Source: Syntrophobacterales bacterium
GTDB taxonomy: Bacteria; Desulfobacterota; Syntrophobacteria; Syntrophobacterales; Thermodesulforhabdaceae
Direction: 5' to 3'
Assembly: GCA_026417655.1 (NCBI GenBank)
Contig: JAOACS010000014.1
Location: 1 to 64,000 of the forward strand
DNA length: 64,000 nt
The first letter of the stretch is position 1. Each line of letters begins with the position of its first letter. The notes under the pieces are model-generated. The model was not told where the DNA came from. It saw nothing but the letters and a program-made list of their open reading frames with translations, and did not search any database. Position numbers and translations under genes: made by a program. Positions 4,871 through 47,446 of the stretch are shown in pieces.

Positions 4871-5793
4871 TGGTTAGGTCTCTTATGGATGCACCCAAAC
4901 AAAAGATTCTTATTATAGATGACACGCCATCTAGCCTTATGATTCTTGGGGAGGATCTAAAGAGTAACTACGAGGTATATGTTGCAACGAGTGGAGAAGA
5001 GGCCCTAAAAAAGATAAGGAGAAATCCTCCCGATTTGATACTTCTCGATATAATGATGCCAAAAATGGATGGATATGAAATTTGCCGAAAACTTAAAGAG
5101 GATATTATTACAAAAAATATTCCTGTTATCTTTATAACCTCTAAAAACTCTGAGGAAGATGAAACAAAGGGTCTCGAGATGGGAGCAGTTGACTACATTA
5201 CTAAACCCTTCAGTCTTCCTGTAGTAAGGGCCAGGATAAAAACACACCTTGAGTTGAAAAGAAAAACCGATCTACTGGAGGATCTTTCAAACAAAGACGG
5301 TTTGACAGGGCTTTTTAATAGAAGAAAGTTTGATGATTTCATCGCCTATGAGTGGAAAAGAGCTATTAGAAACAGAAATCCTTTGTCTATTTTTCTTATC
5401 GACATCGATTATTTTAAGCTTTTTAATGACCATTATGGACACCTTGCTGGAGATGAGTGTTTAAAGAAAATCGCTTCGGCACTGTTGTCGGTATTCAGAA
5501 GAGCTACAGATTTTGTAGCAAGATATGGCGGTGAAGAGTTTGCGGTTGTTCTACCCGATACGGATATAGAAACTGCTCTTAATTTAGCTAATAAAACGAG
5601 AACTTACATTGAAAACTTAAGAATTGAACACCTATACTCTCCTATAGCACCATATGTAACCGTAAGTATTGGGGTTGCTGCAATGGTCCCTTTGTTTGGT
5701 TGTGATTACCACTTATTAGTGGATGCTGCCGATAGAGCCCTCTATGAAGCAAAACTTACAGGACGTAATCGCATCTGTTATAATAAACTTTAA
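4870..5793 (+). CDS. Response regulator with GGDEF domain (diguanylate cyclase)
   Basis: 307 residues. The N-terminal receiver has the acidic pair IIDD, phospho-acceptor Asp 60 (LILLDIMMPKMDG) and Lys in TKPF. The C-terminal GGDEF domain has an intact active site GGEEF (220-224) and an RATD product-inhibition site five residues upstream. It should make c-di-GMP when phosphorylated, with feedback inhibition. Its ATG overlaps the kinase stop by one base, so it is probably translationally coupled to and phosphorylated by that kinase. Confidence 0.93.
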   Translation: MVRSLMDAPKQKILIIDDTPSSLMILGEDLKSNYEVYVATSGEEALKKIRRNPPDLILLDIMMPKMDGYEICRKLKEDIITKNIPVIFITSKNSEEDETKGLEMGAVDYITKPFSLPVVRARIKTHLELKRKTDLLEDLSNKDGLTGLFNRRKFDDFIAYEWKRAIRNRNPLSIFLIDIDYFKLFNDHYGHLAGDECLKKIASALLSVFRRATDFVARYGGEEFAVVLPDTDIETALNLANKTRTYIENLRIEHLYSPIAPYVTVSIGVAAMVPLFGCDYHLLVDAADRALYEAKLTGRNRICYNKL

Positions 5794-7200: not shown

Positions 7201-7486
7201 CGAAGAAATCATAAAGGAGCTTGATACCCTTAGGGCCGAATATGCTAGGCTCGATAAAAAGCGTATAGAAACAGCAACACACTTAAAAAATCGGGAAGAG
7301 CAACTGAGGGAATTACGGGAAAGAGCTAAGGAGCTCTATGGCACAAGCGATTTAGGGGAACTTAAGAAACTTTTAGAAGAGTGGAGGGCAGAAAACGAAA
7401 AGAGAGTGAGGGAATATCGTCAACATATTGAGGAGATCAAGATTAAACTTGAGGAGCTGAGTAATAGAGTCGATGATGAGCGATAG
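7187..7486 (+). CDS. Small coiled-coil protein of the Mre11-like operon
   Basis: 99 residues, strongly charged and almost entirely heptad-like (many Glu, Lys, Arg and Leu; for example RLDKKRIETATHLKNREEQL). No catalytic motif, P-loop or CxxC hook is present. It overlaps both neighbours by 14 bases, which implies tight coupling. I infer that it acts as a separately encoded coiled-coil part of a Rad50/SbcC-like partner; this is not shown by a family match. Confidence 0.65.
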   Translation: MSKSDEEIIKELDTLRAEYARLDKKRIETATHLKNREEQLRELRERAKELYGTSDLGELKKLLEEWRAENEKRVREYRQHIEEIKIKLEELSNRVDDER

Positions 7487-8129
7487 GGAAGTCTTTAAAT
7501 TGGCTAGAGAACTCCGTAGGCACTTCGATTTCCATAAAATTGAGCGTGAAGAATATATCCGAAGACTTAGCGATCTTAAAGGGGAACTAGAGGATATAAA
7601 ATCCTTTCTAGAGCGTTACCCTCTTATAGTCTCCCGTTTAGAAGAGCTCTCAAAGAAGGCCTTTATAGCAACACTTAGAGAGATTGAAGAAAATCTAAGT
7701 TACGCACTTCAGGATATTCTGGGAGATGACATTAGGGTCAAATCACAGGTGGAGACGAAGCGAGGAAAATTTTGGATTCAATTTTATGTCGAAAAGGATG
7801 GATACAAAGAGGACATTCTAAGGGGCCAGGGAGGAGCGGTATGTAATATCCTCTCTGTTGGGCTCAGACTAATCGCTTTATCTCAACTAGAAGAAAAATA
7901 CCACAGACGTTTCATAGTCCTAGACGAGCAAGATTGCTGGGTAAGACCGGATCTGGTGCCTAGATTTATGAAGATTATCTACCACATAGCTGAGAAGCTT
8001 TCTTATCAGGTGTTGGTTATTAGTCATCACGATGTTGATTTTTTCCGCGACTACGCGGACTCCATTTATCGTTTTATACCAGATGGTGAAAAGATGAAGG
8101 TTCAGCGGGTTCCTAAGAGGGGACTATGA
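7473..8129 (+). CDS. C-terminal half of a Rad50/SMC-like ABC ATPase, no P-loop
   Basis: 218 residues. After an N-terminal coiled coil the C-terminal lobe of an ABC/SMC head is visible: a degenerate signature region LRGQGGAVCNILSVG, Walker B with catalytic Glu (FIVLDEQDCW) and an H-loop (VISHHD). No GxxGxGKS/T Walker A occurs here or in the two preceding genes. A working ATPase would need an N-terminal lobe from another gene, or this may be a regulatory relic. It shares ATGA with the next gene. An ATG three bases downstream is an equally good start. Confidence 0.75.
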   Translation: MMSDREVFKLARELRRHFDFHKIEREEYIRRLSDLKGELEDIKSFLERYPLIVSRLEELSKKAFIATLREIEENLSYALQDILGDDIRVKSQVETKRGKFWIQFYVEKDGYKEDILRGQGGAVCNILSVGLRLIALSQLEEKYHRRFIVLDEQDCWVRPDLVPRFMKIIYHIAEKLSYQVLVISHHDVDFFRDYADSIYRFIPDGEKMKVQRVPKRGL

Positions 8130-42989: not shown

Positions 42990-43029
42990 AACCTGCCCCT
43001 CCCCTAGGGATAGGGCAGGTTAGGTTTTT
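42990..43029 (+). terminator. Rho-independent terminator after radical SAM gene
   Basis: Nine-base stem AACCTGCCC/GGGCAGGTT at 42990-43021, then TTTTT at 43025-43029. It closes the plus-strand unit opposite the convergent selenoprotein gene. Confidence 0.85.
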
Positions 43030-44251
43030 ATTCTTCCTCTTCCTCTCCGCCCTCCTTGGGCTCAATAATAAGAGAGTCGGCGACAAGCTCCCACAGGTAT
43101 TTAACCTCAATATCCAACCCGTATTCCTTAGTAAGACTCTTCTTAATCTGGTCACGGCAGTTGTGGCATGGGGCTACCACAAGTTTGGCACCAGTTTCCT
43201 TAATCTGTTTAGCCTTTACACGTCCATAGAAAACTCGTTCTTCCACATAGGGTCCTGCCCAGGCACCGCCACCTGCTCCACAACAGAAGTTATTCGCCCT
43301 GTTAGGATTCATATCGACAAAGTTTTCGCAACACTGCTGAACGATCCAGCGAGGTTCTTCGTAGTAGCCATGTCCGAAGGCTTTCTCACTCTTTCTTGCG
43401 TAATTGCAGGGGTCGTGATAAGTGGCAAGTTCTGTGTGGATTGACTTATCAACTTTTATGCGTCCCTCTTCCAAATATTGCTTAAGGAGATCATGAATGC
43501 TAATATATTTAACTTCACCCTTAAACCATCTTTCGAGACCCAACCTGGTCGCGTAGTAAGCGTGGCCTCACTCAGGTAAAAGTAGATACTCACACTCCAG
43601 TTCCTTATAGTTTTTTACTATACGGCTTACGATCTCCTTCAGGGCAGCATCATCACCGGTAAAGAGCCCCCAATTTACCCCTTCCCAGTTTTCTGAAGGC
43701 ACTGTCCAGGACTCACCGGCTGCATAAAAGATCTTCCACCAAAAGGTCATATCTTCTGGTTCAGCAAAGGGCTCCTTGGAATTGATCGTAACAAGGAGGC
43801 GAGCACCCTTTTGGTCCACGGGCACCTCAAATCCAGGGAGTTCTTCGGCAAGCTCTGCTCCTATGTCTTCTAAAAGGAACAGAAAGTCTTCTTTGGGAAT
43901 GCCTACATTATTTCCGGTGTTTAGGCACATCTCAACGCCTTTATGAAGAACCCCTGGCACTTTGTCTCGGTCTCTGAGACCTCTTGCTGATCTCAGAAGC
44001 GTTACGAGATCAACGCCCATTGGGCAGGCATACTCACAACGGCCGCAGAGCGTGCAAACCCAAGGAAACTTTGAATCTATTATTTCCTGATCAAGCCCTA
44101 ACACTGCGAGGCGGACAACCTTTCTGGGATCAAGCCCTTCTATGCCCGATACTGGGCATCCTCCTGCACAGGTTCCGCAGGTTAGGCATAGCTCGGCATA
44201 CTTACTTGCGAGCTTACGCCTTTCTCGCTTTGATAAAAGTAGTGGCTCCAT
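43028..44251 (-). CDS. HdrD/DsrK-like iron-sulfur protein, probable selenoprotein (UGA = Sec 228)
   Basis: The frame from MEPLLLSKRERRK runs to TGA at 43568-43570 and continues in the same frame to 43028, 407 residues in all. Two 4Fe-4S motifs (CLTCGTCAGGCP, CTLCGRCEYACP) precede cysteine-rich CCG domains (HDPCN, NNFCCGAGGG, APCHNC). Around the UGA the text reads LLLPE-UGA-GHAYYATRLGLERW. Relatives have Cys in this E-C-G-H motif, so UGA probably encodes selenocysteine. The ribosome site AAGGAGAGGAG precedes the ATG. It is probably a membrane-complex or Hdr-like electron carrier. A nonsense mutation is the alternative. Confidence 0.82.
43530..43570 (-). promoter_or_regulatory. UGA codon with SECIS-like hairpin
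   Basis: The UGA at 43570-43568 is followed 17 bases later by a short hairpin: GACC, a six-base loop AGGTTG, then GGTC. The G-G-U loop and the spacing are similar to the bacterial SECIS of fdhF. The stem has only four clear pairs, so the support is modest. Confidence 0.4.
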
Positions 44252-44425: not shown

Positions 44426-45805
44426 CTATACCGCCTCGATCCTTTCTTTGTAACTGTAGGTCTCTTCCGTTTCATCCTCCCACCCATCCCAGAGATAATG
44501 TTTTTCCTCACCTCTGGCTATAACTCTAAAGGCATACCTAACCTGTTCTTCATAAAAGGCACAGTATGGAGCAGGAGCGTTAAGCGATCCGGTAAGGGCA
44601 TAAACTTCAGCCGGACAGGGAGCTCCACAGAAATGCTGAATAGCGCATCGTTTGCAAGGATCAATCTGTTCGGTTGTTCGATAGGTTACTGCCATAAAGG
44701 GTTTTGATGCGAGAATCTCGGAAATCTCATTGGAGAATATGTTACCCCCTTTAAAGACCTCAAGGCCTATAAATTCGCTACAGGGAAAGACGTCCCCCTT
44801 TGCCGATACGGCAAAGAAACATCTACCTCCTCCGCAAGGGGAGATGTCACACATGAGTCGTCTAGTAGTTGGTCCTAGGATGCCCGCAAGAACATTGGCA
44901 AAATTCACTATAACCAATTTGGGACCCCCCTTTTGTCTTATCTCCTGAGAGCGGTCGAGGGCTCTAAGGAAGTAATAGGCTAAGAGATTATCTTCAGGCT
45001 TTAGTCTACGTCCCCCTTCCTGGGTTAATCTTACAGGGTTAAACATAATCATTGGGACTCCGTGATTAGCGTAAAAGTCAACCAACTCGGGGAGGAATGA
45101 AACATTGTGCCTTGTTACGGTGGTTATAACGTTAAAGGCAGGATAATCTGAAAGACCTTCTATGACCTTTAGAATTTGAGCAAAAGCCCCTTTTCCTCCC
45201 CAGGTGTAGCGTATTGAGTCGGCGATCGCTTCCTCATGGGCGTCTAAAGAAATTCCTATTCCAACGCCCTTTTTTCTGAGAAACTCTATGGACTCTTCAT
45301 CCATAAGAGAACCATTTGTTTGAATACCGAATTGGAAGTCCTCTTCGAATTCCTCAATTGCTCTTAAGACAATGTTCTTTGCAATCATTGGCTCACTGCC
45401 GTGAAAAATAAGCTGGGGTTTTACCGAATCAGGAATGTGAGATCGAAAATATGTTAGTAACTTTTCAAGAGATTCCTGGAGCTCTTCATAGCTCATGGTT
45501 CTTCCAACTCGTCGCATATCCTCTGGAAGGTAACAGTAGGGGCAGTTGAAATTGCAGCGTTCAGTGGGGTTGAAATAAACGGCAGAGGGTTTCAATTCAA
45601 ATCGAAAACTATGCATCTCCTTTTTGAAGCCGTCGGATTCCTCTAAGAACTCTCTTACAATACTTCCCGATAGAGCGTCTTTAAGGATTTCCTGTTTTAC
45701 TAGTGTCCAAAAGCCTGTATTCGGCTCGATAACCGCAACTTGATCACTAAGCCCTACATCGAGCACAGCAAACTGGGGACCGTAACCTGAATTTGCGTAT
45801 CTCAT
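44426..45805 (-). CDS. Radical SAM/SPASM peptide-modifying enzyme (CbpB-like)
   Basis: 459 residues. Radical SAM Cys are C84, C88, C91 (CNFNCPYC). The SPASM region contains CDISPCGGGRCFF, GDVFPCSEFIG, CKRCAIQHFCGAPCP and a late YCAF, enough Cys for two auxiliary clusters. The about 80 N-terminal residues before the core may recognise the precursor. AGGAGG lies ten bases before the ATG. It follows a 29-residue ORF and a cobalamin riboswitch, the context of RiPP maturases. I recall, unverified, that NCBI calls this family CbpB. The modification is unknown. Confidence 0.88.
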   Translation of the reverse strand: MRYANSGYGPQFAVLDVGLSDQVAVIEPNTGFWTLVKQEILKDALSGSIVREFLEESDGFKKEMHSFRFELKPSAVYFNPTERCNFNCPYCYLPEDMRRVGRTMSYEELQESLEKLLTYFRSHIPDSVKPQLIFHGSEPMIAKNIVLRAIEEFEEDFQFGIQTNGSLMDEESIEFLRKKGVGIGISLDAHEEAIADSIRYTWGGKGAFAQILKVIEGLSDYPAFNVITTVTRHNVSFLPELVDFYANHGVPMIMFNPVRLTQEGGRRLKPEDNLLAYYFLRALDRSQEIRQKGGPKLVIVNFANVLAGILGPTTRRLMCDISPCGGGRCFFAVSAKGDVFPCSEFIGLEVFKGGNIFSNEISEILASKPFMAVTYRTTEQIDPCKRCAIQHFCGAPCPAEVYALTGSLNAPAPYCAFYEEQVRYAFRVIARGEEKHYLWDGWEDETEETYSYKERIEAV

Positions 45806-45852
45806 ATTTTTTTAACCTCCTGGTTAGAAGAGTGAGGAGACAAAATTTGCTA

Positions 45853-45879
45853 AGGCGCTCCCACAAAAAAGGAGCGCCT
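45853..45879 (-). other. Strong hairpin between peptide gene and maturase gene
   Basis: Nine-base perfect stem AGGCGCTCC/GGAGCGCCT with a nine-base loop that is T-rich on the transcribed strand. No T-tract follows, so it is not a standard terminator. It may protect the peptide mRNA or lower maturase expression relative to the precursor. Confidence 0.7.
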
Positions 45880-45911
45880 CTTGTAATGGAATAAACTAGC
45901 TCATACTGACA

Positions 45912-46001
45912 TTACTTTTTAGGAGTAAGAAGCACATAGTGGGACAGTCCTGTTCCTTCCTGGCGCTTACATTTTCTTCTGTAGCTAATGATTTTCTTCA
46001 T
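45912..46001 (-). CDS. 29-residue putative precursor peptide (CbpA-like)
   Basis: Codes for 29 residues beginning MKKIISYRRK and ending SHYVLLTPKK; the centre is CKRQEGTGL. It has one Cys (position 11), two Tyr (7 and 22), one His (21) and eleven Lys/Arg/His, and is too short for a normal folded protein. A strong ribosome site (GAGGAGGTG) lies six bases before the ATG. It is the first gene after the cobalamin riboswitch, 106 bases before the SPASM enzyme. I infer a precursor for modification by that enzyme. I recall, unverified, the NCBI name CbpA. Confidence 0.8.
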   Translation of the reverse strand: MKKIISYRRKCKRQEGTGLSHYVLLTPKK

Positions 46002-46043
46002 ACTGTTCACCTCCTCTCTCTTTCTGAGATTCAAAGGGCACAA

Positions 46044-46093
46044 TAAAAAAACCCGGACCAATCCCTTCTTTTAGAGGAGATCGATCCGGGTCC
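46044..46093 (-). terminator. Riboswitch expression-platform terminator
   Basis: On the minus strand ACCCGGA pairs with TCCGGGT (46091-46085 with 46057-46051), followed by TTTTTTT. It lies between the cobalamin aptamer and the peptide ORF, as expected for a transcriptional OFF switch. Confidence 0.85.
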
Positions 46094-46118
46094 CTTTGCC
46101 ATCAGGATGCCCGATTCC

Positions 46119-46277
46119 GTCCCGACAGGTCTTCTGGCTTTCCCCTCTTAGACGCCTTCCCATCCCACTTAGGTGAGACAGTGGCATAATGTCTAAGAGC
46201 CGACTCCCTAGAGTCGCACAGGGATCACAGCGGCGGGTCCGCCACGGATTTTCACCGTGTTCCGAGATGTCGGGTCG
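46119..46277 (-). promoter_or_regulatory. Cobalamin riboswitch
   Basis: Minus-strand hallmarks in order: P1 strand CCCGACA (46274-46268), ACACGGTGAAAATCCGTGG, a CCGCTGTGATCCCTGTGCGA-type core, GCCACTG, GGGAAGGC, then the B12 box AGCCAGAAGACCTG (46139-46126) and the closing P1 strand TGTCGGG (46127-46121). The B12 box is intact. A terminator follows, so binding of a cobalamin should stop transcription into the peptide and radical SAM genes. Confidence 0.93.
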
Positions 46278-46293
46278 GCGGTAACAATTTGTA

Positions 46294-46322
46294 AATTAAC
46301 TCTTTGGGAGCACTAAGGTCAA
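46294..46322 (-). promoter_or_regulatory. Promoter of the riboswitch transcript
   Basis: On the minus strand TTGACC (46322-46317), 17-base spacer, TTAATT (46299-46294). The start would be near 46287, just upstream of the aptamer. It lies directly after the FBP aldolase/phosphatase gene, so the B12-controlled locus has its own promoter. Confidence 0.6.
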
Positions 46323-46330
46323 GACCTTTG

Positions 46331-47446
46331 CTAGACTTCTTGGGTGTGGGCTCGATTTACAAAGCGAGGTTCAAGTATTTCCAGTTTTTTGACGAGCCCA
46401 CCATATTCAAGTTCGCTATAGGGAAGCATTGCGCTGCCAAAGAAACCCTGTCGTCTTATTTCTATGGCTTTTTTGGCTACCTCATGTCTAACGTATTCCC
46501 AGAAGGGGTGGTCAAAGGCATCGACAGGGCTAGTAAGCCGTCCCTCATGGACGCAGTAGGCTGCACAGGAGACGATGGGAGGACCATCAAAAAATGAGAT
46601 AGTTGAATTTTGGGTTACAGGCATGAGAGGACCTACATGGCTTCCTCTCATAAATCCTGCTACGTAGTGTCCCAGGTGAAATGGTGCAAGCACCTCTCCT
46701 GTTGCTGGAAAGTTACCCTGAACTCTTACAATCATAATTGGATCGTCCTTTCCAGTATATTTCCCGGCTATATTTCGAAGTCGAGTGGTGCTTGCTGCCA
46801 CAACCTGTTCTCCCGTTTCCCTAGAAAAGATCGCTTCGACAACAAAACGTTCTGTGTCCCTAAGAAGGGCCGCGATGTCATAGAGATCCTCTGGGGCATT
46901 TAGATCAATGATCCGGTCCGCTTCGGTATAGGCCACATCCATTATGCGGAATGTGAATCCCTTAAACATGCTTGGAGAAAGAAGAAGACCAGAGCAATAC
47001 ATAGGATCGGCAAAGGCAAGATAGAGGGGAAGGTTATATGCACCGGGATCGGTTTTATCGGCGGCAAAAAATAAGAATGGCTCCGATGGACGTTCTTCGA
47101 TTTCCATTTCTGCAACGGCAGGACCAAGACCTCTCACGTTACCGGCAAAGGCATCCTTTAAAAGATCTTGTCCGGCTCCATAAAGTCCCTGATCCTTTGC
47201 AACCTCAGTCGCAGCCTTGAAGGCGTCCCAGGCTAGTTTATGAACCTTTTCGGAGCATATTCCTTGGGTATGGGTACAGAGGATGGATATATCGTCCCCC
47301 GTGTAGCTTATTCTAAAATCGATGAGTACCCCCTTGTGATGTTGTTCTACGTAGTTCTTTACCGCTTCTAGGACTCTAGTGCTAGGTTTAATATGACCGC
47401 CTACACTACCTATGTCAGCTTTGATACCTGTGATGGTTACCTTCAT
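46331..47446 (-). CDS. Bifunctional fructose-1,6-bisphosphate aldolase/phosphatase (archaeal type, class V FBPase)
   Basis: 371 residues. Family hallmarks are the N-terminal ITGIKADIGSVGGHIKPS, the DDISILCTH metal region, GAGQDLLKDAFAGNVRGLGPAVAEMEIEERPSEPF-like core and NLPLYLAFADPM. In relatives one enzyme condenses triose phosphates and dephosphorylates the product in gluconeogenesis. AGGAGG lies eight bases before the ATG. It is divergent from the mrp-like gene. The mrp-like and transketolase genes follow on the other strand. Confidence 0.93.
   Translation of the reverse strand: MKVTITGIKADIGSVGGHIKPSTRVLEAVKNYVEQHHKGVLIDFRISYTGDDISILCTHTQGICSEKVHKLAWDAFKAATEVAKDQGLYGAGQDLLKDAFAGNVRGLGPAVAEMEIEERPSEPFLFFAADKTDPGAYNLPLYLAFADPMYCSGLLLSPSMFKGFTFRIMDVAYTEADRIIDLNAPEDLYDIAALLRDTERFVVEAIFSRETGEQVVAASTTRLRNIAGKYTGKDDPIMIVRVQGNFPATGEVLAPFHLGHYVAGFMRGSHVGPLMPVTQNSTISFFDGPPIVSCAAYCVHEGRLTSPVDAFDHPFWEYVRHEVAKKAIEIRRQGFFGSAMLPYSELEYGGLVKKLEILEPRFVNRAHTQEV

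Follow-up and report, generated by a model that had tools for sequence, protein, structure and literature searches.

A cobalamin riboswitch, a short peptide gene and a radical SAM/SPASM maturase gene in a Syntrophobacterales genome, with a possible link to cobalt or corrinoid supply

The best solved neighbour of the enzyme described here is CteB (PDB 5WGG, 5WHY), the thioether maturase of SCIFF/ranthipeptides, which is reported with an open auxiliary cluster I held by three cysteines and whose SCIFF precursor contains six cysteines in forty-five residues. Next in fold similarity to the enzyme is the anaerobic sulfatase-maturating enzyme anSMEcpe (PDB 4K36-4K39), whose substrates are sulfatases and not an adjacent short peptide, and which shows, after its second auxiliary cysteine, an aspartate that serves as its catalytic base. 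The peptide and enzyme families have names in NCBIfam, TIGR04164 (cobo_pep, CbpA) and TIGR04163 (rSAM_cobopep, CbpB), and such families reportedly stem, in all likelihood, from Haft and Basu in 2011. Literature searches with the CbpA/CbpB family names found no published function, the original family descriptions and the subscription literature being outside their reach, and a search combining RiPP with cobalamin or cobalt gave nothing relevant. No RiPP is known to us to have a role in supplying cobalt or corrinoids. Cobalt delivery to the B12 pathway in anaerobes is only partly known; the CobW metallochaperone is reported (review PMC7689651) to provide B12 synthesis with Co(II), and to do so for the late-cobalt pathway.

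Layout of the locus and its leader

The window, which is the whole analysed stretch of 64,000 nucleotides, contains on its minus strand a possible promoter, a cobalamin riboswitch, a terminator, cbpA, a hairpin and cbpB, in this order (Table 1). The peptide gene comes first and is separated from cbpB by 106 nt.

Table 1. Features of the cbpAB locus in the window
Feature	Position	Strand	Basis
Possible promoter, TTGACC-17-TTAATT	46294..46322	minus	direct reading; 3/6 consensus bases in -10
Cobalamin riboswitch aptamer, including closing helix P1	46117..46278	minus	RF00174 match (46263-46129) and fold
Intrinsic terminator, long stem and T7 (expression platform)	46045..46094	minus	fold and scan
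cbpA, 29-aa precursor peptide MKKIISYRRKCKRQEGTGLSHYVLLTPKK, 29 codons from ATG 46001 to stop 45912, AGGAGG at the ribosome site	45912..46001	minus	TIGR04164; kept beside cbpB in many phyla
11-bp hairpin between cbpA and cbpB	45852..45880	minus	fold -27.1 kcal/mol for the intergenic stretch, z -1.8
cbpB, 459-aa radical SAM/SPASM peptide maturase	44426..45805	minus	TIGR04163, Pfam Radical_SAM and SPASM, model

An earlier note, made from the letters of the sequence, had claimed all six of these elements. The riboswitch is borne out by the covariance model RF00174, which scores 60.4 bits (gathering threshold 31.5, E 1.8e-12) in a local match that covers positions 47-167 of the 189-position model; the closing helix P1, formed by 46278-46268 and 46127-46117, is visible in the fold only. 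Apart from RF00174, a scan for RNA families around the locus with lax E-values gave chance matches only. The claimed terminator is also found, as a hairpin from about 46094 to 46052 followed by T7 at 46051-46045, and of 58 homologous leaders 56 show a hairpin with a T-run at -14 kcal/mol or better, compared with 52 of 580 (9%) after shuffling, in the same scan. A generic promoter/terminator consensus scan listed neither the promoter nor the terminator of the locus, the latter because its stem probably exceeds the limits of the scan. As to the promoter, its -35 box fits the consensus, whereas the -10 box matches at only three of six positions; since the scan also omitted it, the promoter is weak evidence and the weakest element of the locus. 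The hairpin between the genes is real, though unexceptional. No exact antiterminator pairing of at least six bases was found in the leader, and, when the leader is truncated, CGGG and CCCG pair in a weaker alternative hairpin. Judging from the position of the terminator and the usual behaviour of RF00174, corrinoid would repress cbpAB and the pair would be made at low B12.

Directly upstream of the riboswitch and on the same strand, the window shows a gene encoding a fructose-1,6-bisphosphate aldolase/phosphatase (46331-47446), which is apparently unrelated and has no B12 link that could be seen. At 43028-44251, also on the minus strand, a single gene encoding an HmcF/DsrK/TmcB-like iron-sulfur oxidoreductase is split into two ORFs by an in-frame TGA at codon 228 (LPE-U-GHAYY), probably a selenocysteine codon. 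The same genome contains a tRNA-Sec gene (75.9 bits against a cut-off of 47), and the RNA fold downstream of the TGA is not significant.

The peptide and its maturase

The 29-residue ORF with a ribosome site, as the earlier note had it, matches TIGR04164 with an E-value of 7.3e-9 and 35.0 bits, exactly the 35-bit cut-off and so a bare pass. The shortness of the ORF and this score are what speaks for a chance or regulatory leader ORF, with CbpB acting on another substrate, a reading of almost negligible probability: the peptide is conserved at the protein level across phyla, the core 16 codons show five synonymous and no nonsynonymous differences from the same-genus relative, and cbpA stands alone, away from cbpB, in two genomes. 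Among 98 relatives surveyed, 28 contain cbpB and 26 of these also contain cbpA, the two misses being genomes in which cbpB is cut at the contig start; a peptide match, weak and possibly real, occurs in one of the 70 cbpB-negative relatives (Fisher p 3e-20). Never more than one copy was found in these 98 relatives. The set fetched with the enzyme contains 80 loci from named genomes, five of which start too near cbpB to be judged. All 75 usable genomes show cbpA: 73 next to cbpB and two elsewhere in the genome. Two of the 73 adjacent genes were recognised by eye, one in L080 (GLAHY) and one in L076, where the contig end cuts the gene. In two Thermodesulfobacteriaceae-like MAGs (L050/L053 with L125/L126), cbpA and cbpB are unlinked and no B12 riboswitch was detected; in L126, cbpA adjoins a different radical SAM/SPASM protein. 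A MAG in which no cbpB was detected (L127, 1432-1599) shows a divergent CbpA-like peptide (RLKC...NGLSHY) immediately 3' of BtuC- and BtuD-like genes.

Residue statistics were taken from 71 distinct CbpA sequences. R8, C11 and G18 are invariant, and L19 and H21 show no variation, which is partly by construction because the sequences were gathered with an LSH[YF] pattern. Position 20 is serine or may be alanine, as in the GLAHY peptide; position 22 is nearly fixed, with Tyr in 68 and Phe in three; position 7 is Tyr in 48 of the 71 and otherwise F, I, H, L, C, Q or A. The spacing between C11 and GLSHY ranges from 5 to 7 residues, 67 of the 71 peptides have a single cysteine, and Trp is absent from every one. 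Thus, of the three residues that had been expected to be conserved, Cys 11 and Tyr 22 hold, the latter with few exceptions, and Tyr 7 does not, while the unvarying R8, G18, L19 and H21 had not been named. No leader/core boundary is visible in the alignment, conservation extending over most of the peptide, and the CbpA profile gave chance matches only against solved structures.

CbpB matches TIGR04163 with 637.8 bits (cut-off 375) and carries the Pfam Radical_SAM and SPASM domains, in agreement with the enzyme class first read; together with the peptide match, this confirms the names CbpA and CbpB that the earlier note had given to the pair. In 56 CbpB sequences, the radical SAM motif CX3CX2C (C84, C88, C91) is invariant, and so is the complete seven-cysteine SPASM pattern CX9-15GX4C...CX2CX5CX3C...C, here C324-X12-G337-X4-C342, C384-X2-C387-X5-C393-X3-C397 and C415. 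The same sequences show an additional invariant cysteine, C319, which brings the auxiliary-cluster cysteines to eight. The structural model of CbpB (pLDDT 90.6, pTM 0.90) has CteB (Z 34.4) and anSMEcpe (Z 33.1) as its nearest solved folds. In the sequence alignment, C319 lies beside a cysteine of anSME and opposite a non-cysteine residue of CteB, which suggests that auxiliary cluster I of CbpB may be fully ligated as in anSME; full ligation would argue against binding of a substrate cysteine at an open site. The N-terminal domain (13-70) has a beta-beta-beta-alpha-alpha arrangement, with strands at 13-16, 22-27 and 32-37 and helices at 38-45 and 48-70, a layout like that of an RRE, a leader-binding domain that many, though not all, RiPP systems possess. 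A fold search with the isolated domain gave no significant match: Foldseek placed the RRE protein TbiB1 at the top and CteB further down, at E 0.16 or worse and with VIA Z below 5.

Gene context and proposed function

B12 riboswitches can control B12-independent isoenzymes such as MetE. The genome of the window shows five further RF00174 matches, located before genes encoding a Peripla_BP_2 (BtuF-type) protein, a CobN-like chelatase, a CbiK cobaltochelatase, a TonB receptor and a BtuC-type permease, all likely functions of cobalt or corrinoid supply; no B12-independent isoenzyme was found behind any of the five. CbiD and CbiM are present in this genome. Just upstream of the riboswitch preceding the CobN-like gene, there is a gene encoding a PapB-like radical SAM/SPASM protein (L002, 1723-2844, minus strand).

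The B12 link was counted in 73 peptide-bearing loci: 71 fetched loci, the window and the same-genus relative. A B12 box precedes cbpA in 58 of them and an RF00174 match in three more (61 in all). Of the 12 loci without a riboswitch signal, 10 lie inside B12 operons, L095 is cut by the contig end and L112 has a gene for a RACo-like corrinoid activator upstream. Representatives of the key neighbour genes were checked by NCBIfam and Pfam, and CbiQ, CbiO and BtuD were named by eye from sequence. L075 (Chloroflexi) shows the order CbiM-CbiQ-CbiO-cbpAB-CbiX-CbiD-CbiET, in which cobalt transporter genes precede the pair, and L080 (Deltaproteobacteria) shows CobO-CbiA-CbiC-cbpAB-CbiX-CbiM; in both, the gene for the cobaltochelatase CbiX is immediately 3' of cbpAB. 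L098 has CbiA-cbpAB-CbiM, and CbiM is also next in L081. The order cbpAB-CobT is found in L049, L058, L066 and L091, and L101 shows CobT-CobS-cbpAB-DUF71-BtuF-BtuC-BtuD-CobO, a neighbourhood of DUF71 and BtuFCD that has been associated with the salvage of B12 (PMC3541065). Grouping of the CbpB sequences at 75% identity leaves 43 groups, 13 of which have a core B12/cobalt gene no farther than about 3 kb away, compared with a rough expectation of about 3-4 groups if such genes make up 1-1.5% of all genes. CbiD accompanies cbpB in 27 of 28 genomes, against 39 of 70 cbpB-negative ones (p 4e-5), and CbiM is also associated with it (p 0.005); both associations are weak evidence because the two genes occur widely in the phylum and the counts include no phylogenetic correction. 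In L109, a Bryobacterales MAG, two cobalamin riboswitches (5360-5551 and 7380-7571) are present, one 5' of cbpAB and the other right after it, the second preceding CobU and a TonB receptor gene.

Support for a link of cbpAB to cobalt or corrinoid supply comes from the operons that surround the pair in many phyla and from the genes that the other B12 riboswitches of the genome precede; the context points to the pathway and not to the reaction. Against it stand the two Thermodesulfobacteriaceae with unlinked genes and no detected riboswitch. The reading that we prefer, with a confidence somewhat short of even, is that cbpAB is a peptide and maturase pair transcribed at low corrinoid, whose modified peptide acts intracellularly in cobalt or corrinoid supply. 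At high corrinoid, the riboswitch would drive the terminator ahead of cbpA, and at low corrinoid CbpA and CbpB would be produced together. The predicted site of modification by CbpB is at the invariant R-x-x-C and G-L-S-H-Y motifs of CbpA or in between, and the modified peptide may hold Co(II) or a corrinoid, e.g. via the invariant Cys and His, and then hand it over, most likely inside the cell. Against the preferred reading, a single invariant Cys and a single invariant His make a poor metal site for one peptide. A further proposal, less probable than not, is that CbpA is the precursor of a ribosomal, radical-SAM-made and B12-repressed carrier that, in anaerobes belonging to many phyla, would shuttle Co(II) or a corrinoid among the steps of import, chelation and cofactor assembly.

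CbiD, CbiC and an over-cut-off CbiF are all undetected in about nine of 50 cbpAB genomes, which are MAGs, so that absence is soft evidence. These bearers favour a role common to synthesis and salvage. Feeding of Co(II) to the corrin-ring chelatase as the sole role of the peptide was considered and is set back by the same genomes, unless they are merely incomplete. They are also compatible with an unlikely alternative in which modified CbpA serves corrinoid metabolism as a redox or catalytic cofactor comparable to PQQ or mycofactocin, for instance where Co(II) is reduced to Co(I) ahead of adenosylation. CbpA is short, strongly conserved and single-copy, unlike antibiotic-type RiPPs, and the neighbours of the pair include the adenosyltransferase CobO, CbiA, CobT and the RACo-like activator, as such a cofactor would have it, but neither a dedicated peptidase nor a partner oxidoreductase is conserved beside the pair.

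The earlier note had proposed a scavenging compound for cobalt or corrinoid. The supply part of this proposal agrees with the operon context and the regulon, and the part that implies secretion does not fare as well: no exporter, protease or signal peptide is conserved beside cbpAB, and no leader peptidase was seen. A secreted scavenger (metallophore) is accordingly a clearly improbable reading, even if the pair is probably B12-repressed and TonB and BtuFCD uptake genes adjoin some loci; most copies have no receptor gene beside them, and the peptide has no separate leader. The intracellular role is preferred over secretion because no exporter, protease, leader or signal sequence was seen or conserved. 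Still less probable, and very unlikely in our view, is a B12-independent fallback in which modified CbpA replaces the corrinoid cofactor or equips a B12-free isoenzyme. Control of such isoenzymes by B12 riboswitches would allow it, but cbpAB sits within operons of B12 synthesis and uptake and co-occurs with CbiD, and the five other riboswitches of the genome precede supply genes and not isoenzymes.

Encoded beside genes for cobalt transporters and cobaltochelatases in phyla that are unrelated, the short and putatively modified peptide offers a concrete candidate for a supply factor that is still missing. Its small size makes CbpA cheap to test, and, if the role is true, the maturase family, which counts some 460 relatives among the genomes searched, would gain a function.

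Comparison with known systems

The locus belongs to a named family as one of its ordinary members and is as such already known: both models match, the peptide at the cut-off and the enzyme far above it, and no difference from the family was found. The evidence from operons, the revised set of invariant residues and the eight-cysteine auxiliary pattern may be new, although others may have noted some of this. The next NCBIfam matches of CbpB are the maturases of dynobactin (DynA) and of a ranthipeptide (PapB), at 137 bits, far under their cut-offs of 450 and 340. CteB matches CbpB by profile with E 3e-36 and by fold over 377 residues with an rmsd of 3.3, at about 20% identity; it has no counterpart of C319, which in CbpB would be a candidate fourth ligand of auxiliary cluster I, and CbpA is without the cysteine pattern of the SCIFF precursor, having one invariant Cys. 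The anSMEcpe structures give Z values of 32.4-33.1 to CbpB. Like CbpB, anSME shows a cysteine a few residues ahead of the SPASM cysteines and eight auxiliary-cluster cysteines, and it differs in its aspartate after the second auxiliary cysteine, which in CbpB is a serine. CobW, which belongs to the G3E GTPases and carries a CxCC motif, has no relationship to the 29-aa peptide and may be a functional analogue of CbpA by hypothesised resemblance only.
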